The notes beneath the pieces were generated by a model. That model was not told the origin of the DNA. It ran no database searches and was given only the letters and a program-made list of their open reading frames with translations. A stretch of 64,000 nucleotides of DNA, taken from NCBI GenBank assembly GCA_002400495.2, contig NVQL02000013.1, forward strand, positions 1 to 64,000. Direction: 5' to 3'. The DNA is from Alphaproteobacteria bacterium (GTDB lineage Bacteria > Pseudomonadota > Alphaproteobacteria > Rhizobiales > OSC116). Shown in pieces: positions 6,478-42,494 of the stretch. Made by a program: the position numbers and the translations under genes. How positions within the stretch are numbered: position 1 is the first letter of the stretch; the number at the start of each line of letters is the position of its first letter.

Positions 6478-6487
6478 GAATATGTAT

Positions 6488-7377
6488 TTATTTAAACTTT
6501 TTAGTCAGGCCAAATGTAATGGCGTGATTTTGATAATTATATAATTGAATATTGCTATTGCGGTTTTGATATTGGTATTCAATATTGGGCGCGAAATCGA
6601 AGATACGTATTTTGCTATTTGCCACCCGAATGCTGGCACTTAAAGTGAGATCTTTGCGTGAAACCCCAAACAAATTGTCAGTTTGCAAATGGGTTTCATA
6701 TTGTGCTGCAATGCGATTATGAATTGTAAAATAACTTACCAAACTATGCCGAGTGCCAAAACTTAAACCGAATTTAGCCGTATCATCGCCATTAATGTAT
6801 GATTTTTTAAAGGCAATGGTTGGGGCGAGGTGAAAGCCTAGTTCCGCACTTTGCTCATAGCTGAATGTTTGCGCCAAGCTGCTATAATATTCGTGCTCAA
6901 TCGCGCCATCATAATCCATTTTTTGAAAACTGAAGCGGCCAGACCAATTTAATTTGTCGCTTAATGCTTTGTCCCAAATTGCCCAAATGCCATATTGACT
7001 ATAATAGGCATTATTATCGAAAAACTGGCGGTTATAAGACAGGCCTATGGCATATTTATCGGCATTTTGCTTAAGACTAAGCCCAAGCTCACCGCCCAGA
7101 TTGTAGTTAAATTGTTTTGAGCCAGTGAGGAGGTTTCCAGTTGCAGAAACCTTAAAATGGCCATAAATATCATCGGCCAATTGTGGCGAAATTAATAGGC
7201 CTCCATCGGCATTTATATTCACCCCAGTTTTAGCCGAAAAGACGAACGTGCGGCAGAAAGCAGCTGCTCAATCAGAATTTTCTCGGAGGTTTTTACTGAT
7301 TTCTTTTCAATTGCGAAAACGCCAGTTACGGGTTGTATTGACAATAGTAAAAACAATAAGACAATGAGTTTGGGCAT
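6488..7377 (-). pseudogene. Slam-type outer-membrane barrel, N-terminus frameshifted, no TPR domain
   Basis: The main reading frame (7222 to 6488, GTG first codon) encodes 244 residues of amphipathic strands ending YNYQNHAITFGLTKKFK. The segment FGVSRKDLTLSASI followed by PNIEYQYQNRNSNIQLYN matches the C-terminal barrel of surface lipoprotein assembly modifiers (Slam, DUF560), which carry lipoproteins across the outer membrane. Upstream in another frame, an ATG at 7377 starts a signal peptide (MPKLIVLLFLLLSIQPVTGVFA) and 52 codons that stop at 7219. Adding one G in the CTGGGGTGAAT run joins the two into about 296 residues. The usual periplasmic TPR domain of some 200 residues is absent. It sits directly downstream of two TbpB-like proteins, its likely cargo. 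It may be a pseudogene, a sequence error, or a two-state locus. Confidence 0.7.
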
Positions 7378-7446
7378 AAAATCAGCTCACAGATATCAAC
7401 GCCCGAAGCAATGGCAGAGAGATTAATCGCTTCGAGCAATGGTTAG

Positions 7447-8268
7447 TTAGTTACTATCGACACCAAAACCGACTGTGCCAATCATTAAATCATTAGATAA
7501 AATGCCTGTGCCTTTAATCTCTGAGCCATAATAGCCAAAGAAATTACCATCTAGTGTGCCCGTAACGCTTGTCGCTAGCCCCATATTACTATCAAATTCG
7601 GCGTCTGATTTTAAATCGGCGGTGATTTGATTGCCGGTAATTTTACCATTGCTCACCACAACCGCGCCATTAAATTCAACAGAATCTTCAATTCCGTTAG
7701 CGTAAAGCTCATGCTCACTTGTTTGACCGCTCAATGTGCCTGTGGCAAAGTCTACATCCAAATCTAAATCGGAATAAACATATTTAAAAACATCACTATC
7801 ACCTGCTTTATCGCGTAAAAGAAGTTCGAGCCCCCCCCGATAACTTGCCGTTCCTGTGGTTGGCGGCTTTTCGGTTTTTTCACCAATGGCTAAGAAATAT
7901 AAATCCGCAGTTTTTGCCTCATCATTACGCAATTGCACGCGCCATAATTCAGAATGTTCTGATGTACCTGCCCCTTGGCGTCGAACCGTCAAATGACTGC
8001 CATCGGTTAAATCTTTATCATATCTTGGCCTCGTACGCTCTGCATCTAAATCGGCTTTGCTAAATTCGTAGGTTTTGCCGTCAATAATTGCAGTTAGCCC
8101 GCCATCATCATTTTGTTTTATATCGACTTCTAGTGAGATGGCTTTGGTCTGGCTCGGCGTGGTTGCGACGCCCTGAGCAATGCTCATAGTTGAGGAACTT
8201 GTTGTCTGGCAAGCTGCTAAGCCTATTAATACTGTTGTTGCCAATAAATATTTGCCTATATTTTTCAT
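7447..8268 (-). CDS. TbpB-like surface lipoprotein, likely Slam cargo
   Basis: 273 residues with a lipoprotein signal peptide (MKNIGKYLLATTVLIGLAAC), Cys20 being the lipidated residue. The C-terminal 130 residues are beta-rich and end with GNFFGYYGSEIKGTGILSND, resembling the small eight-strand barrel of transferrin-binding-protein-B-like proteins (TbpB_B_D). Members of this fold bind host or environmental ligands such as haem carriers, and reach the cell surface through Slam. A Slam barrel lies 70 bp downstream and a related protein 45 bp upstream, so a three-gene operon is likely. GAAGGTAATATT precedes the ATG. A run of eight G (plus-strand C, 7831-7838) lies in codons 144-146, in frame in this copy. 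The ligand is unknown. Confidence 0.75.
   Translation of the reverse strand: MKNIGKYLLATTVLIGLAACQTTSSSTMSIAQGVATTPSQTKAISLEVDIKQNDDGGLTAIIDGKTYEFSKADLDAERTRPRYDKDLTDGSHLTVRRQGAGTSEHSELWRVQLRNDEAKTADLYFLAIGEKTEKPPTTGTASYRGGLELLLRDKAGDSDVFKYVYSDLDLDVDFATGTLSGQTSEHELYANGIEDSVEFNGAVVVSNGKITGNQITADLKSDAEFDSNMGLATSVTGTLDGNFFGYYGSEIKGTGILSNDLMIGTVGFGVDSN
7831..7838 (-). repeat. G8 homopolymer tract inside the lipoprotein gene
   Basis: Eight consecutive G on the coding strand read TAT CGG GGG GGG CTC. Slippage by one base would truncate the lipoprotein. Poly-G tracts in surface receptor genes are a known phase-variation device in Neisseria and Haemophilus. Here it is only suggestive. Confidence 0.7.
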
Positions 8269-8313
8269 AATATTACCTTCGTGGTTTTATCAACCACTTA
8301 CCTTATATCTGGA

Positions 8314-9159
8314 TTATTTTTTGAATTCTTTGTTGGCGTCGAAACCAGCCAAACCCGAATATTTGTCATTTTCAAGAACTGCTATGCCGGCCATTTCGGT
8401 GCCATAATATCCATAGAATCCACCGCTCATTTCGCCTGATAGGCTTTGCGTAAGACCCATGCTGGTGTTTAATGTCTCGTCGGTGGTGATTGTTGCGGTA
8501 AATTTATCTCCAGCAATGACACCAGAGGTGATATCGGCACCGCCATCAAGTATGATATCTTCTTGCTGGTCATTATCCCAAGTTTTAACGTCGTAAAAAC
8601 TGCCTGCAATGCTGTTATTATTGAAATCTACTTCCAATTCTATATCGCCGTAAAAACTTGATTGATCATTAAATGGGTTAGTTTTATTACGCATGCTGCC
8701 GCTAAGTCTACCTTCATAAGTGGCAACAATATCGGTTGGCATTTTCACAGGTTTATCGCCATTAATCACATAGCCTTGTTCATAATTATCATCATGCCCA
8801 ATGCCGACATACCATATTTGCACGCCCTTATGATGCCGATTTAGTAAATCAATATAAATGTCATCAACATCGCTATCATCATCTATTTTTTTACGAAATC
8901 GGTTTTTATTGTTGCCATCTGGGTTTTCTAAATCAGTTTTATCAAATTTATACTTTTTGTCACTAATGGTGACTTCAACTTCACTTTCAGCAATTTTAAC
9001 CACATTAGCTTTGGTTGAACTTATTGAGATTTTATCGGTGAGCAATAAGCCGGTATAACCAAGGTTTATTTTCTCTGGCGCAGTTGTGGTTGTTCCGCTT
9101 GCCACTAAAGTAATAGCTGCTAAACTTACCAGCCCCGATTTTAAAATGAAGTTTTTCAT
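8314..9159 (-). CDS. TbpB-like secreted protein with lost lipobox cysteine
   Basis: 281 residues, related to the lipoprotein just downstream. Both start MKN, carry a K-Y-F/E-F-like strand pair (ISDKKYKFDKTDLE here, IDGKTYEFSKADLD there) and end with a GxxGYYGxE motif (GGFYGYYGTEMAGIAVLEND). The signal peptide (MKNFILKSGLVSLAAITLVA) leads to Ser21 where the neighbour has its lipidated cysteine. The codon is AGC at 9099-9097, one base from TGC. It is therefore predicted to be non-lipidated, either a soluble Slam cargo (haemophilin-type haemophores are known soluble Slam substrates) or a mutated lipoprotein. GAGGGTT precedes the ATG. It is probably the first gene of the operon. Confidence 0.75.
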   Translation of the reverse strand: MKNFILKSGLVSLAAITLVASGTTTTAPEKINLGYTGLLLTDKISISSTKANVVKIAESEVEVTISDKKYKFDKTDLENPDGNNKNRFRKKIDDDSDVDDIYIDLLNRHHKGVQIWYVGIGHDDNYEQGYVINGDKPVKMPTDIVATYEGRLSGSMRNKTNPFNDQSSFYGDIELEVDFNNNSIAGSFYDVKTWDNDQQEDIILDGGADITSGVIAGDKFTATITTDETLNTSMGLTQSLSGEMSGGFYGYYGTEMAGIAVLENDKYSGLAGFDANKEFKK

Positions 9160-9324
9160 AAAAGAACCCTCGTTTTTGATAGATTATAACTAGGCCAAGT
9201 GCTTAAACTGGCGCTTGGCTTTACATTTATTTATGTAGTGCAACTGAGTATAAGCGGGCTTTACAGCGGGGCAACCTATCGAAAACGATACTTATTAGCA
9301 TTTAAATGTATAAATTATGATGTT

Positions 9325-10086
9325 TTATAACTGAATGTGACCATCGCAAATGGCAACGGCTAAAGCCTGCTCACGGGTATGAGCATTTAGCTTTTTACGT
9401 GCCGATATGATATGCTTGCGTACGGTAATTTCGGCAATGTTTAACTTGTCGGCAATGGCCTCATTTCTGAGCCCCGCAGCTAGCCAAGAAAAAACTTCGC
9501 CTTCTTTGGAGGTTATTGTTTTTTGGCCTACACTAAACACGCCTTCTTGGTTTTTATCTCCAGGAATGCCTATATTTACAGATATAATAGACGCTAAAAG
9601 TCTCATTTCATTAAATGGCAATGCTTTTTGAAATTCCTCGACCGACAAATCGCTGCAGATGGAAATAAGCTTATGCGTGTTGTGTGCATTGCCAGCAAAA
9701 TTCAATCCAAATACAGAATTGTAGCCAGTTCCAACCAAACCATGGTTCAAATCTAGTAACTTAGTATCATCAGTGTCTTTTTTAGTTAAACTGCCAGCAC
9801 GCAACGTTGTAAATGCGTTGGTCACATTTATCGATTGATACAATGGATCGCTGGTATAAAAACCTTCCGCTAAATAATCGTTTAACCAATCCTCATTCAT
9901 TGAGCTGCGGGCCCAAGTGATAGTTTTATTGGGTGTAGACGTCGTAATATTAAGCGCATTGCCGCCAACTTCAGTCACCAAACGATTGGCCAAGTGCCAC
10001 ATAGATTCTTGATCATCTAATAATGAAAATTGCTCAATGGCGTTATCTATAAAGTTTAAAAATTTTGAATCCACCCTTTTCGCCAA
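9325..10086 (-). CDS. LuxR-family regulator with autoinducer-binding-type domain
   Basis: 253 residues. Residues 20-160 resemble the autoinducer-binding domain (WARSSMNEDWLNDYLAEGFYTSDPLYQ, LNHGLVGTGYNSVFGLNFAG). Residues 185-253 are a LuxR-type HTH (TSKEGEVFSWLAAGLRNEAIADKLNIAEITVRKHIISARKKL). The position of the WxxxY-like and DPxxQ residues fits quorum-sensing regulators, but no LuxI synthase is in the window, so it may be an orphan ('solo') receptor. It is divergent from the broken hydrolase gene. The 20-bp palindrome at 10175-10194 lies in the shared upstream region and is a candidate binding site. Confidence 0.85.
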   Translation of the reverse strand: MAKRVDSKFLNFIDNAIEQFSLLDDQESMWHLANRLVTEVGGNALNITTSTPNKTITWARSSMNEDWLNDYLAEGFYTSDPLYQSINVTNAFTTLRAGSLTKKDTDDTKLLDLNHGLVGTGYNSVFGLNFAGNAHNTHKLISICSDLSVEEFQKALPFNEMRLLASIISVNIGIPGDKNQEGVFSVGQKTITSKEGEVFSWLAAGLRNEAIADKLNIAEITVRKHIISARKKLNAHTREQALAVAICDGHIQL

Positions 10087-10174
10087 TCTAGTTTTGAAAA
10101 TCTGTAATAATATATTTATGTATTCGCTTATTTTTTACTTACGATTAAGTTATAATCGACAACTAAAAGCTGCG

Positions 10175-10194
10175 CATGATACAAATGAATCATG
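10175..10194. promoter_or_regulatory. 20-bp palindrome, candidate lux-box-like operator
   Basis: CATGAT and ATCATG form perfect 6-bp arms around an 8-base centre. The total length is 20 bp, like lux boxes. It lies between the divergent LuxR-type gene (start 10086) and the hydrolase gene (start about 10235). Binding is inferred from position and symmetry only. Confidence 0.45.
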
Positions 10195-10234
10195 AGAAAA
10201 AAATAATATACTATAATTTAAGTTGAAATGAATT

Positions 10235-11801
10235 TTGGCTACAGCTTTACATTTTCTTGATGCTGACAAATTAGGGTTATACTTTATGCCTTCAAATCCA
10301 ATAGAATCCGCAGAAAAAGATATTTTGAATTTTCTTGGCGAAGAGGCCACGAAAGAATTTTACACAAACCAAAATGCAACTATAAATCACCAGAATTTAC
10401 AACGAATTATTATCGATAAAACTGGAAAGCTCATACTGGTTGAAGGCGATATTAAACTGTTTAATGAAGTGCTAACCACAGAAAATTTGCAACTCATATT
10501 TGAACAAAATATCGGTTTTATGCGTAGCGGAGATGCATTAATTATATGCCGATCACAATCATTGATAGATGATATGGAGCTATCTGAACTTGTCTATATA
10601 ACGCCTGACATGATCACAAAATCTATAGATGATTTAAAGCCATTAGGTATAATCACCAATGCTGAATATAGCTTATTGCTTGACCTACTGACAGGACTTT
10701 CGACCAAAGAAACGGCACTTAAAGATGGTGCATCATATCATACCAGACGAAACCAAGTTAAATCTTTAACTGAGAAATTGTCAGTAAGTGGTCAAACGGA
10801 GCTTATACGCAATGTAATCGCAAGCATGTTTTCAGTGGCGTTTAAAGTAAAGGAAGTTGGTGATGTTGAGGCTAAAGATGTTGCTGGTGAATATTTAGAT
10901 AAGGTGATATTGAGTGCTTATCGTTTTCACAAGATCCAGTTACCAGATAATGAAACGATAAGAGCGATTGATTTTGGACCCATTGGTGGTGACCCAGTCA
11001 TTATTTGCCACGGTTCTTTTTTATCATTCTTCCCAAGTAGCTCTGACGATTGATTGTATGAAAATAATATGCGCATACTCATGCCCTTGCGCCCTGGTTG
11101 CCTTGAAATCCTAGACAGCCTATATGATGGTGATGAATATCTATCAAAATCCGTTACTGCCATTGACCAGATAATAAGTATATTTGCTCTGCAAAAGCCC
11201 ACTCTAATGGCAATCACATCTGGCGTGTTTGTGGGCTTGGAATATGCACGAATGCATGGTGAGAAAATCAGAAAACTAGTTATGACCTCTTCGTCTCATT
11301 TTGGAGCCATAAAAAACAACTCACGTAAAAAAATGCTCAGAGGATTTATGACACTCAAACCATTAAACCAGATGATCATAAAAAAGCTTGCTGATTTTTA
11401 CGCGTATAAAATGCGTGATCCAGAAACAACATTGCGAATGCTCCTTTCAATCCACGAGGGAAGTGAATATGACCAATATATATAAAACGACTTTTTCGAG
11501 ATATAACGCTCATGCTGCTTTCTTGGACTGTATAAAAACTGGGTGGCGATCATTTTATATGAACGGCCTTATCGATCGGGATCGAATTTGGAATGAGCTT
11601 GAATATATTACTTGCCCCGTTTTAATGGTTCGCGGAAAAGAAAACCCCGTTGATAAAATTGAAGATATACGCTTGACCCAGCAAAAATTACCAAACAGCC
11701 AACTGATTGAAGTTGAAAATAGAGGGCAATATTTGGTATTTAAAGAATTTGGTGATTTTTTTAAATATGCGCTGGTTGATTTTGAACCCGAAGATGCTTG
11801 A
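10235..11801 (+). pseudogene. HTH-alpha/beta hydrolase fusion protein, broken by a stop and a frameshift
   Basis: Read through, this would be about 520 residues. The N-terminal 200 residues contain a LuxR-like HTH region (LTNAEYSLLLDLLTGLSTKETALKDGASYHTRRNQVKSL). After that comes an alpha/beta hydrolase: DPVIICHGS (oxyanion strand), then FALQKPTLMAITSGVFVGLEYA (nucleophile-elbow region, lacking the usual GxSxG) and a C-terminal part with CPVLMVRGKENPVDKIED. An in-frame TGA at 11051-11053 interrupts it (probably a former TGG Trp), and a frameshift lies near the AATATATATA run at 11473-11484, after which the frame used ends at 11801. The apparent start is TTG 10235; ATG 10286 is an alternative. 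With two lesions, it is probably decaying. Confidence 0.7.
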
Positions 11802-11814
11802 ATGTTTGGTTCGG

Positions 11815-21026: not shown

Positions 21027-21145
21027 GCCGAAATCAATGAATGTTGTAAATGTAAATGGCATAGGGTTTTGCTTGATATCGGGAATTTAACTGGTAAATT
21101 GCAATGGCAATATATTGAACAAGAATCACTGTTTAGCAAGATGTC

Positions 21146-21961
21146 ATGACCCAACCATATAACCGACTATTAAAAGCAAGAGCCATGGCGGGGTATCGCT
21201 CTGGCCGCGCTGCTGCTGCGGCCATTGGGGTTAAACCTGCAACTTATGCCTCGCATGAAAATGGCACACGAACGTTTAGCGTGCCTGATGCACAAAGTTA
21301 TGCAGATTTTTTTAAAGTCTCGGCAGGTTGGTTGCTAACGGGTGAAGCGTTAGGTGGGAATGATTTTTTTGACAGCCGATTTGACACTCATCCCGAACCA
21401 TCTGCAAGAACTGGCGGCCGTGAAAGGCTTATAGCGGATGTGACCGAAGCCCATATTTTAGATTTTGGTAAAAAAATGCTAGAGGTGGCTGCGCAGATTT
21501 TACCCGCAGCCGAAACTGACCAAGATGCTGGTTTACAGACAATTGGCGAAGTGGTTATTCATCGAATGTTAAATGATGATTACCCGCACGAGGCGGAGCA
21601 GTGGAGCATTGTTGCACAATGGAAATTACCCAAAGAATATATAGCTAAAAATTTAAAAATAACTTCGGATCAAGACGCCGCCATCATTGTGATGATTGAC
21701 GACAATATGATGCCCACTTGTAAAATTGGGGATAAATTAATAGTTAATTTTTCACAAAAGAAATTCACGTCAGATGGTATGTATGTTTTTTTAGATGAAA
21801 ATCTAGGGTTGCATATTCAGCGTGTTAAGCGTGTGAACCAATCTCAACTTGAAATATCCAACGACAATTCAACAGAAAATAGAAAACATCCGATAGGCAT
21901 TGTGGATGAACAGAGAATAGAATTTGTGGGTTTGGTGCGCGGCAATATATCTACATTCTAA
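21146..21961 (+). CDS. XRE-HTH/LexA-type S24 regulator without catalytic residues
   Basis: 271 residues. Residues 5-65 are an XRE-type HTH (AGYRSGRAAAAAIGVKPATYASHENGTRTF). Residues 150-268 have the S24/LexA fold. The expected GDSMEPT is DDNMMPT (185-191), with Asn187 in place of the Ser nucleophile. The following Lys position (KRL-type motif) appears as HIQRVKRV, so self-cleavage is unlikely. Such repressors exist in phages and stress regulators that respond by other means. No adjacent early phage genes are visible. It lies alone, convergent with the lipase gene. Confidence 0.75.
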   Translation: MTQPYNRLLKARAMAGYRSGRAAAAAIGVKPATYASHENGTRTFSVPDAQSYADFFKVSAGWLLTGEALGGNDFFDSRFDTHPEPSARTGGRERLIADVTEAHILDFGKKMLEVAAQILPAAETDQDAGLQTIGEVVIHRMLNDDYPHEAEQWSIVAQWKLPKEYIAKNLKITSDQDAAIIVMIDDNMMPTCKIGDKLIVNFSQKKFTSDGMYVFLDENLGLHIQRVKRVNQSQLEISNDNSTENRKHPIGIVDEQRIEFVGLVRGNISTF

Positions 21962-21967
21962 AAGCGA

Positions 21968-22732
21968 TTACTGGCTTTCATTGTCAGGTGGAAAGGCGCG
22001 CTGGGCTAAATCTTTTGTGGTGAGGCTATGCTCGAATTTGCCATTTTGTAAAAAGCCGACGACTTGAGCAATTACCAATGGGTCTAACATCATGAGTGTA
22101 TGGGTGACTGGCAGGATAATATGATCATTCATGCCCTCAATTTTTGTCGAGTTGACCGAAACTTTGCCATCATCTACACCGTCTAGAATATCTGAGAATA
22201 TAGGGTTGAATGATTTATTGCCCGCTATGATTCCTAGCTCAAAATTTGCTGCGCCTAAATTATTGGGTATGCTGTCTTTGCCCGTACCCAATTGTTGGCC
22301 TGCGGGGCCGTTCATTTTTTGAAACATGTCCCAACCCTTAAATTCATCGATGATTTTGGAACCTTTATTGGGTGGCCCCATCATCACCACCCGCCCCATA
22401 TTTGGAATTTGGTTATAGGCCAGCCACGCACGGGTTAGAATGCCGCCCATTGAATGAGTGACAAAGTTCACTTTATCGTCGCCACATTCCTTCACAGCCA
22501 CGCCCACCTCTTTGGTAAGCTCTTCAATTGGGGCTCTGGTGGATGGATAATAATGATTGATTACATTATAGCCAATCGAGCTTAAGGTTTGCTCCAAAAC
22601 AATTAATGATTTTTCAGTTCTGGCAAGGCCGTGCAGCAACACAACTGATTCATTTTTAACCGAATGAGGCGTGATGGATAGGATGTTGAAAATAAGTGAT
22701 TGGATATATTTTTGCAAATCATTCATTGGCAA
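21968..22732 (-). CDS. alpha/beta hydrolase, lipase/PGAP1-like
   Basis: 254 residues. [14 protein letters not shown] carries the oxyanion strand. [16 protein letters not shown] is the nucleophile elbow (GHSMG-type, here THSMG). A catalytic Asp in MMLDPLVI or FSDILDG, and the His in LPVTHTLMM, complete a likely triad. There is no signal peptide, so it is cytoplasmic or non-classical. The first of three adjacent minus-strand hydrolase genes. The natural ester is unknown. Confidence 0.8.
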
Positions 22733-22813
22733 CGTCTTTATAGCGGGTGTTAAAATGGGTTGGCAGCATCACACTACCAACCCATGGCTATAATTATAAG
22801 GCGGAGAAACCAA

Positions 22814-23853
22814 TTATTTCAATTGTTTTCTCAAAAATTCGCCTAATTCGGTGTAAACAATCTTATTTTCTGGCATATGGGTGTAAACTAAAAACTCACC
22901 ATGTGAGATACCTTCGTAAACATTCAAATCGGCAGTGCCGCCTGCGGCTCTGATCGCCCTATGTGCACGAATGGTTGTGCTTAACAATAAATCGCGCGTG
23001 CCTGATACCAATTGGGCGGGGGGGAAGGTCGAAAATCACCATAAACTGGGGAGATTAGTGGGTTTTTCATATCTTCTCCGCCAGCATACATAACGGCTTG
23101 CTGGCTTAACTCGCCTTCATAAACTGGTAAAATTCTATCAATGCCTTCATTGGTGAAATAGCTATCGCCAAGTTTTGCAACATCTGTCCAAGGTGTGCCA
23201 CCAAAATATGCGGCGGGTGTGGCTATGCCATCCATTTTTAGTTTATGAATGGTGGCCATGGATAGGTTGCCGCCTGCTGAACTGCCGCCGATTGCCAGTG
23301 ATGCCGGGTCGTAATCTTTGAGTAACTCCTTATAAACCGCCACAACTTCGTTGAGCGCAGTGGGATAAGGGTGCAAAGGAATGGTGCTGTAATCGATTGA
23401 TATAGAACGTATCTTGCCATAATGCGAAACGCTCAAGGCTTCGAACGGAGCGGCATCTCCAAAGCCCATTGAAAAACCACCACCATGTGTATGCACAAAC
23501 AGGCGGTTTTCATTTTCGGGCAAGATTTCGGATGGTGTGACCCAATAAACGGGAACGCCTGCAATTTCGGCTTTTTCGACTTTTACATTCCATTGTGCAG
23601 CAACGCCGTTGCCCATGGCCGCAAAACCAAGCGAACTTTCGACCGACATATCTACCCAGCCTTGCGTGGTTGCAGGTAAATGTTTGACGGTTGGGGGTTT
23701 TGGAGTTGCATTGACAGCATCATATAATTCTTGGCTGCCTTCGGTGGGTGGTGGCACAAGGCGGCTCACTGTCCATGCTTCTGCTGAAACAGTAATCGGC
23801 ATGTCTATACTTAACAATATTGAAGTTGTTATTATGGTTTGTTTAAAAAACAT
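22814..23853 (-). pseudogene. hormone-sensitive-lipase-family esterase, out of frame at a C7 tract
   Basis: The first frame (23853 to 22981) has a signal peptide (MFFKQTIITTSILLSIDMP to VSAEAW), the HTHGGGFSMG oxyanion motif, GGSSAGGNLS (nucleophile Ser) and a C-terminal Asp region. It then ends prematurely in NWYQARAIYC. The continuation, VSGTRDLLLSTTIRAH, ending KIVYTELGEFLRKQLK with a His in GISHGE, is in the next frame (from 23011 down to 22814) and supplies the catalytic Asp and His of the fold. The break lies at a run of seven C on the coding strand (23018-23024). One extra C would join the frames, giving about 345 residues. It may be a two-state (slippage) gene, a pseudogene, or a sequencing error. 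It was probably a secreted esterase. Confidence 0.75.
23018..23024 (-). repeat. C7 (coding strand) homopolymer where the esterase frame breaks
   Basis: Seven C in the coding strand, flanked by CCTT and GCCCAATTGG. With C8 the reading frame continues to 22814. With C7 it stops after 22981. Confidence 0.8.
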
Positions 23854-23976
23854 CGACTTCTCCTCTATACTTTAGTTTGTTTTGCTGACACTAAAGAATT
23901 TGGAAATCTTGTCTACATTTATCTACAATTTGATTCTTAATGACTCCAAATTGTATTATTTATCCACAATTGACTA

Positions 23977-40038: not shown

Positions 40039-40458
40039 ATGTTATTTTTAATTATCGGCGCGGCTTTAAGCGCAATTGCCAGCTTGGCACATATTGGGTG
40101 CATTATATTTGGTGCGCAATGGTATCTGTTTTTTGGCGCGGGCGAGCGCATGGCAAAATGGGCGGATGAAGGCAATGTGAAGCATGTCATCATCACCCTG
40201 CCAATTGTTGTGATTTTGGCAATATGGAGTGCTTATGCCTTGTCGGGCGCTGGGGTTGTTTTGACGTTGCCATTGTTAAAATGGGTGTTGGTTGGCATTG
40301 CTGGCGTTTATATAATTCGTGGCGTTTACGGGTTTTATTTTGTGCTCAGGCCGCACGGTGAAAATAGTGCAAAATTCTGGTTTTATAGTTCAGTTATTTG
40401 TTTAGGCTTTGGCATTGTGCATTTAATTGGGCTGTTGCAGGTATGGCAAAACATATGA
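40039..40458 (+). CDS. conserved membrane protein
   Basis: 139 residues, four membrane segments (MLFLIIGAALSAIASLAHIGCIIFG, HVIITLPIVVILAIWSAYALSG, KWVLVGIAGVYIIRGVYGFYF and SSVICLGFGIVHLIGLLQVW). The pattern of His/Gly in the first and last segments resembles small heme- or quinone-related membrane proteins, but no assignment can be made. Its end overlaps the convergent hydrolase by 36 bases. Confidence 0.6.
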   Translation: MLFLIIGAALSAIASLAHIGCIIFGAQWYLFFGAGERMAKWADEGNVKHVIITLPIVVILAIWSAYALSGAGVVLTLPLLKWVLVGIAGVYIIRGVYGFYFVLRPHGENSAKFWFYSSVICLGFGIVHLIGLLQVWQNI

Positions 40459-41358
40459 CGCTATGTCCTCTGGCAGAGTGTGATCGAAGCCTTTTAAAAA
40501 TATTTCTTTTGTTGGGGTAAGTGGTTCCAACGCGGCTAAAGGAACTTCAATTCCAGTATCAAATTCAGCTCTAAATATTGTTGTCGGAATATCTTTGCAA
40601 GTGACATTGCCAACAAAATCACCCTCATGCGGCATAAATGCTAAAACCTGTTTTGGCTGCACAATGCCATGGGTGATGGCACTGATCGAAACCATCGCGC
40701 CACCAGAAAATCCTGCCAATGTGACGTTGTTTTCATCAATATTTATATGCTGTTTTATGAGCTCAAAAGCCTGTTTTATGACTTGACGATTTTGGGGATA
40801 ATGACCTGTCCAAAAATAGCCATCAGTGCAAAACAGTTGCGGCGATTGCAAATAAGCAACGGCAAAACCTGAGGCTAAATATGGGCTTGCAGGCCAAAGC
40901 TCGGCGATTGATTCATTTAACTGACCGTCGCCATGCAAGATAAGTAAAATTTCGCCATTAAAACGGGCAGTTGGCATGTATAGTTTAAGTTCTGATTCAG
41001 TGTTTTTTCGCAACTTATTCAGTGCTTGTTCGGCTTGTTGGCGCAAAGCTGCGAATGCTGGAAGCTGTTTTATGCCCTGATAATAACCCTCATTATGCAT
41101 GGGGAAAAATATATTTTTACCTGCTGCTTCAAGTAGTTCCGCCATTTCCTTATCAGGTTGATTCAGTTTGTTATAAACCCAAGCGCAATAACCGTAATTT
41201 TCAGCATTACGATCTGGCATGGTCTGCTTCATCTGGTTGAGCAAATCTAGCGCTTCGTCATAGCGCCCCTCTCCCACTAAATCATCGACCTGTTTATCCA
41301 ATATTCGGTAGGACGAAATTTCTAAATTATGGGGCGGTTGATTTAATATGAATTTCAT
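40423..41358 (-). CDS. alpha/beta hydrolase
   Basis: About 311 residues from ATG 41358 (MKFILNQPPHNLE); a longer open frame upstream lacks support. The N-terminal 90 residues are a TPR-like helical region (DDLVGEGRYDEALDLLNQMKQ). The rest is an alpha/beta hydrolase: ILLILHGDGQLNES, then TLAGFSGGAMVSISA (nucleophile Ser), a late Asp in FRAEFDTGIEV and a His in LKGFDHTLPED. Similar to dienelactone-hydrolase-like or phospholipase-like proteins. Cytoplasmic, substrate unknown. Confidence 0.75.
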   Translation of the reverse strand: MKFILNQPPHNLEISSYRILDKQVDDLVGEGRYDEALDLLNQMKQTMPDRNAENYGYCAWVYNKLNQPDKEMAELLEAAGKNIFFPMHNEGYYQGIKQLPAFAALRQQAEQALNKLRKNTESELKLYMPTARFNGEILLILHGDGQLNESIAELWPASPYLASGFAVAYLQSPQLFCTDGYFWTGHYPQNRQVIKQAFELIKQHINIDENNVTLAGFSGGAMVSISAITHGIVQPKQVLAFMPHEGDFVGNVTCKDIPTTIFRAEFDTGIEVPLAALEPLTPTKEIFLKGFDHTLPEDIASYVLPYLQQPN

Positions 41359-41402
41359 TTTAAGCTCGTAGAAAAATAAATTATAAAACATGAGATTTTT
41401 AA

Positions 41403-42494
41403 ATGATACAATCATTAATGGATAAATGCCACACACATTTTTACCAACATAAAAACGTTTCGGCAGCGGAATTATTTACAAAGATAAGTGAATTTTGTGA
41501 AGCCAATGGAGTTGATATTGATAGGTATGGCGAAGGCGAATTTATTCAAAAGTTCGAGCAGAAAATTGCTGACCTTTTGGGATTTGAGAAGGCGGTTTTT
41601 TTTGCTACGGGCACTATGGCGCAATCGACCGCATTGCAAATTGCTTGCGACAAACGCCGCAACCATATTGTCGCCATGCACCCAAGTTGTCACATATTCA
41701 AACATGAGCGGCAAGGCTATCAAATTTACAATCGGTTTAAAATATTGCCATTGGGTACAGCTTATGCGACTTGGAATAAAGCTGATTTAGAAGCTTGGCC
41801 TGATGAGATTTCGGCCTGTGTTTATGAATTGCCGATGCGGGTTTTGGGTGGACAATTGCCAAGTTGGGACGAGCTGCAAGAGTTGAAAGAGCATTGTGCT
41901 GAGCAGGATATTCATTTTCATATGGATGGCGCGCGGCTGTGGGAAGCTGCTGCTTATTATGGCAAAAGCTATGCGCAGATTGCTGCGGGTTTTGACAGCG
42001 TCTATGTGTCTTTATATAAAGGCGTTGGCGGCTTGGGTGGCTCGATGTTGCTGGGTGATGAAAAGATGATTGATATGGCAACTGTGGCGCTACAACGCCA
42101 GGGCGCTAACCTCTACACCCGCCTGCCCTATATTGCCTCGGCAGCGATGAATTTTGATGACAAAATTGCGCTGATGCCGCGATATTTTGAACGCACAAAG
42201 CAAATATATAAAATGCTGGCAGGCTATGAAAAGATAAAACTCAACCCGCCCGCACCGCAGGCCAACATGTTCCACATGCATTTGCCAGTGAGCAGCGAAA
42301 GAGCCACCGAAATACGTGATAAAATTGCTGAACAATATGGCGTTTGGATGTTTGGCGGGGTTGAAGATACCGAACTTGAAAATAACTGTAAACGCGAATG
42401 GTATGTTGGCGATGCGCTGTTAAACCTGCCAGATGATGAGTTTTTGAAAGTAATGGATTATTTCTATCAAGAATTAACCATATTATCGGCTTGA
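41403..42494 (+). CDS. threonine aldolase-family PLP enzyme
   Basis: 363 residues. Beta-eliminating lyase fold with DIDRYGEGEFIQKFEQKIADLLG at the start, a cofactor-contacting Asp in HFHMDGARLWEA, and the PLP lysine in SLYKGVGGLGGSML. A low-specificity threonine aldolase (threonine to glycine and acetaldehyde) is the most likely reading; L-allo-threonine or phenylserine aldolases are the near relatives. Upstream it faces the hydrolase across only 44 bp. Confidence 0.85.
   Translation: MIQSLMDKCHTHFYQHKNVSAAELFTKISEFCEANGVDIDRYGEGEFIQKFEQKIADLLGFEKAVFFATGTMAQSTALQIACDKRRNHIVAMHPSCHIFKHERQGYQIYNRFKILPLGTAYATWNKADLEAWPDEISACVYELPMRVLGGQLPSWDELQELKEHCAEQDIHFHMDGARLWEAAAYYGKSYAQIAAGFDSVYVSLYKGVGGLGGSMLLGDEKMIDMATVALQRQGANLYTRLPYIASAAMNFDDKIALMPRYFERTKQIYKMLAGYEKIKLNPPAPQANMFHMHLPVSSERATEIRDKIAEQYGVWMFGGVEDTELENNCKREWYVGDALLNLPDDEFLKVMDYFYQELTILSA

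Follow-up and report, generated by a model that had tools for sequence, protein, structure and literature searches.

Does the three-gene locus at positions 6488-9159 of the window (the whole 64,000-nucleotide stretch of contig NVQL02000013.1 that was analyzed) encode an unusually compact Slam exporter, or the remains of an exporter of the known kind? A preliminary description, made from the sequence alone, had recognized a barrel gene with Slam landmarks and two TbpB-like genes upstream of it, and had proposed that such a locus, without the periplasmic TPR part, would be a distinct minimal form. The proposal thus combined a claim about the identity of the locus with a claim about the form of its exporter gene, and these have fared very differently.

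The identity of the locus was examined by profile searches. The barrel frame at 6488-7222 on the minus strand matches the Pfam SlipAM (DUF560) profile PF04575 (E-value 6.7e-15; score 55.8 bits, cut-off 22) from about position 54/55 to position 288 of 288, and hence has the C-terminal barrel of the Slam proteins over a partial profile. Directly upstream on the same strand lie cargo 2 (7447-8268) and, before it, cargo 1 (8314-9159), each of which encodes a protein with a single C-terminal TbpB-type barrel. Both score above the cut-off of TbpB_B_D (PF01298), with E-values of 1.1e-10 for cargo 1 and 1.7e-7 for cargo 2, both match the NCBIfam profile slam_lipo ("Slam-dependent surface lipoprotein") below its strict cut-off, and the matching GYYGxE ends that had been noticed are present as GFYGYYGTE and GNFFGYYGSE. 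Since these matches are well beyond chance, the first interpretation of the landmarks, for the barrel and for its two neighbors alike, was right: judged by its protein families, the locus is one of type XI secretion (T11SS, Slam), and its host is a marine alphaproteobacterium that belongs to the OCS116 group. The host assignment agrees with the nearest relative that has the locus, the MAG NORP83 (G003, contig NVUS02000283.1), which is placed in the OCS116 cluster; it carries the same three genes in the same order, and a cargo gene followed by a Slam gene is found in G004 and G005 as well. A Slam outside Neisseria-type hosts is no oddity: published surveys report Slams in all clades of the Proteobacteria (PMC5449769).

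The two cargoes differ in their N-terminal ends. Cargo 2 is a lipoprotein with the lipobox LAAC (Cys20). The Sec-type signal peptide of cargo 1 has no lipobox, and the protein is entirely free of cysteine, in the window and in NORP83 alike; the relatives of cargo 1 in G004 and G005 do have a lipobox cysteine (LVAC and LAAC). TbpBBD cargo is known to come in lipidated and soluble varieties (PMC8406197), and by this published distinction the cysteine-free cargo 1 is probably, as predicted from its sequence, a soluble cargo. Compared with the PDB, the cargo profile finds the lactoferrin- and transferrin-binding proteins B (LbpB and TbpB) and, weakly, hemophilin; in the N-terminal parts of the cargoes no Pfam handle domain was matched. 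The cargo 1 orthologue is 66% identical, that of cargo 2 is intact in NORP83, and both cargo genes of the window are still open with dN/dS values of 0.13 and 0.16, which indicate constraint; they may still be in use. AlphaFold models of the NORP83 Slam and cargo 1, computed from two sequences each, the window and L025 proteins, had mean pLDDT values of 32 and 40 and were discarded.

The state of the exporter gene is best appreciated by comparison with NORP83, in which the locus stands beside the same convergent methylase gene as in the window. The NORP83 orthologue is a single frame of 406 codons with a signal peptide, TPRs (a TPR_19 match, and a TPR_Slam match below its own cut-off) and a SlipAM match over positions 1-288, and TPR-bearing orthologues of this gene, here called Slam-A, exist in two further species of the genus. 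In the window the barrel remnant (6488-7237, minus strand) shares 79% identity with residues 160-406 of the complete Slam in NORP83, but it is out of frame with its own signal peptide. The latter survives in a stub of 52 codons (7219-7377, minus strand), which was seen in a three-frame translation and has its homologous counterpart in residues 3-54 when the NORP83 Slam is used as query; it comprises a signal peptide and a short mature part (MPKLIVLLFLLLSIQPVTGVFA...AARSSFRLKLG) in a frame other than that of the barrel. When the barrel frame itself is read upstream in the three-frame translation, stops are encountered and no signal peptide is found. A pairwise DNA alignment accounts for this arrangement: the window gene aligns with that of NORP83 on either side of one gap of 334 nucleotides at about 7235/7236, a length that is not a multiple of three and so breaks the frame, and the segment lost contains all of the TPRs and the first barrel strand. 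The lost segment occurs nowhere else in the genome: a genome-wide search for it matched only a distinct second Slam, at 31%. The dN/dS of the barrel relative to NORP83 is 0.05 (NG86, with dS saturated), lower than the values for the cargoes, which implies that the gene was long constrained and that the break is recent.

The damage is not confined to the exporter gene. The locus is part of an accessory island (6478-11814) that is absent as a block from G001, the closest species, whose methylase is 97% identical to that of the window as against 89% for NORP83. In G001 the flanks of the island are contiguous (91.6% and 92.4% identical) and the 5.3 kb between them is missing whole; in G002, too, Slam-A was not found. 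Because NORP83 has it in the corresponding position, the simpler reading, drawn as it is from few genomes, is that G001 has lost the locus. The GC content of the island is 0.385, compared with 0.441 +/- 0.025 for stretches of the same size within the window. Besides the secretion genes, the island holds a LuxR-type regulator with a GerE domain (9325-10086, minus strand; PF00196, 1.5e-14) upstream of cargo 1 on the same strand, and a broken regulator-like gene (10235-11801, plus strand). The latter was delimited by tblastn with a 506-aa protein from L014, a homologue 39% identical that is intact in G004 and is encoded there directly before the cargo and the Slam; the window copy is interrupted by a stop codon in frame at 11051-11053 and, near 11480, by a frameshift. 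As a control, all 42 of the window genes that could be compared with G001 can be aligned in one uninterrupted frame. The lesions are thus restricted to the island, and the contig is not an error-prone one.

Some additional observations concern these surroundings. In three genomes of the genus, regulator-like genes adjoin a pair of cargo and Slam genes (L014, 4076-6635; L015, 1279-3222; window, 9325-11801), the neighboring regulator in the window being of the LuxR/GerE type. Elsewhere in the window, a segment of about 2.95 kb (21028-23976) is absent from the syntenic place in the closest species, and by inspection its ORFs are XRE/cI-like regulator, lipase-like and alpha/beta-hydrolase-like; positions 40050-42350 are 81% identical to the closest species, against about 92% in the flanks.

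In all likelihood, then, the supposed minimal exporter is no new compact form but a gene in decay, derived from a TPR-bearing Slam by deletion and frameshift. The opposite view, that the barrel alone is functional and constitutes a genuine minimal Slam, could appeal to a SlipAM match that covers most of the barrel and to experiments on NilB cited in PMC8406197, in which deletion of the whole periplasmic domain was better tolerated than small TPR deletions and relieved their defects, so some Slams may be able to do without TPRs and a TPR-less Slam is possible in principle. The window copy is nonetheless a poor candidate for one, because it has also lost its first barrel strand and has no signal peptide in the barrel frame; moreover, every comparable relative has the TPRs, and among 832 surveyed Slams there was none with DUF560 only (PMC5449769). 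Our own census points the same way. SlipAM is matched in 35 of 289 alphaproteobacterial genomes, and with three exceptions the matches fall within open frames at least 420 aa long; the short ones are the window copy (259 aa), a frame of 151 aa in G158, which on inspection is a C-terminal remnant, and one of 127 aa in G302:C48. A distinct TPR-less exporter at this locus is accordingly most improbable. Nor does the sequence bear out a barrel gene that lacks the TPRs and is otherwise whole: the barrel frame begins at a GTG overlapping the TGA stop of a separate stub (7219-7222).

That same overlap is what might be invoked for a split gene, in which the stub and the barrel would both be translated, either with coupling at the overlapping GTGA or with ribosomal frameshifting to join them. 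A barrel that starts at that GTG would have no signal peptide, no canonical slippery heptamer was seen by eye at the junction, the product would still miss the TPRs and strand 1, and the layout occurs in no relative; we consider this reading highly implausible. Scarcely any credence attaches, likewise, to the more general idea that through recoding or coupled translation the remaining pieces make up a working TPR-less Slam, a true minimal translocon that exports both lipidated and soluble cargo. Somewhat less far-fetched, although still unlikely, is an assembly artefact, with a full-length Slam-A in the living strain and a spurious gap of 334 nucleotides in the sequence. The window comes from a single draft genome of 122 contigs with an estimated contamination of 4.88%, and the low dN/dS of the barrel would suit an intact gene; but the control genes are unbroken, another gene of the island has lesions of its own, and the missing segment is on no other contig. 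Taken as a whole, we regard the region as very probably an accessory T11SS locus in decay.

The history that we propose is as follows. In the intact relatives the locus encodes a single Slam, with its signal peptide, periplasmic TPRs and DUF560 barrel, together with one TbpB-barrel cargo or two; following export cargo 2 would remain anchored through its lipid, whereas the cysteine-free cargo 1 would leave the cell surface. The deletion of the TPRs and first barrel strand in the window genome has left the remainder out of frame, the adjacent regulator being broken too, and with both segment and frame lost Slam-A could presumably no longer reach the outer membrane as a protein. The cargo products would then be stranded, or might be exported in trans by a second, intact Slam. 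Such a gene exists in the same genome: on contig C67 a Slam of 467 aa has a lipoprotein cargo gene upstream. It has full-length relatives in G001, G002 and G004; G005 has a weakly matching frame of 463 aa, and NORP83 only a frame of 74 aa.

Cargo genes at a distance from any exporter gene were also encountered. The orphan TbpB_B_D genes L056 (G003:C115) and L059 (G001:C35) lie away from any Slam, and their signal peptides have cysteine-free ends (LVASGTTGG and LMANGTTGG) that resemble that of cargo 1. Several TbpB_B_D genes in G003 and G004 (L055-L070) are scattered on contigs other than the Slam contigs. Their positions suggest that many cargoes may be served in trans.

How does this locus compare with the systems that have been described? 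With the Slam/T11SS outer-membrane proteins (Slam1/2, NilB and HrpB) it shares the Pfam barrel family and the adjoining TbpB_B_D cargo, and the intact orthologues of the genus share the full layout of signal peptide, TPRs and barrel; the window copy differs through its deletion, which has taken away the TPR domain and first strand and put the signal peptide out of frame with the barrel. The cargoes have the single C-terminal barrel of TbpBBD proteins of the TbpB and hemophilin/HrpC types and, like these (PMC8406197), include a lipidated and a predicted non-lipidated member, but their N-terminal parts gave no match to a Pfam handle domain. Paired lipidated and non-lipidated cargo genes also occur in the Cluster 3 T11SS loci of marine alphaproteobacteria (PMC12282271); those loci mostly have DUF1194 genes, with TbpBBD only rarely, in 8 of 145, whereas the window locus has two TbpBBD genes.

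In short, an alphaproteobacterium here carries a locus of a known kind whose exporter gene is broken. A false lead toward a TPR-less Slam is thereby removed, and in its place there is a natural series within one genus in which the locus is intact, broken or lost as a block. Strains of this sort, in which another Slam is intact, could serve to examine whether a cargo that is left behind when its own Slam is lost goes out in trans.
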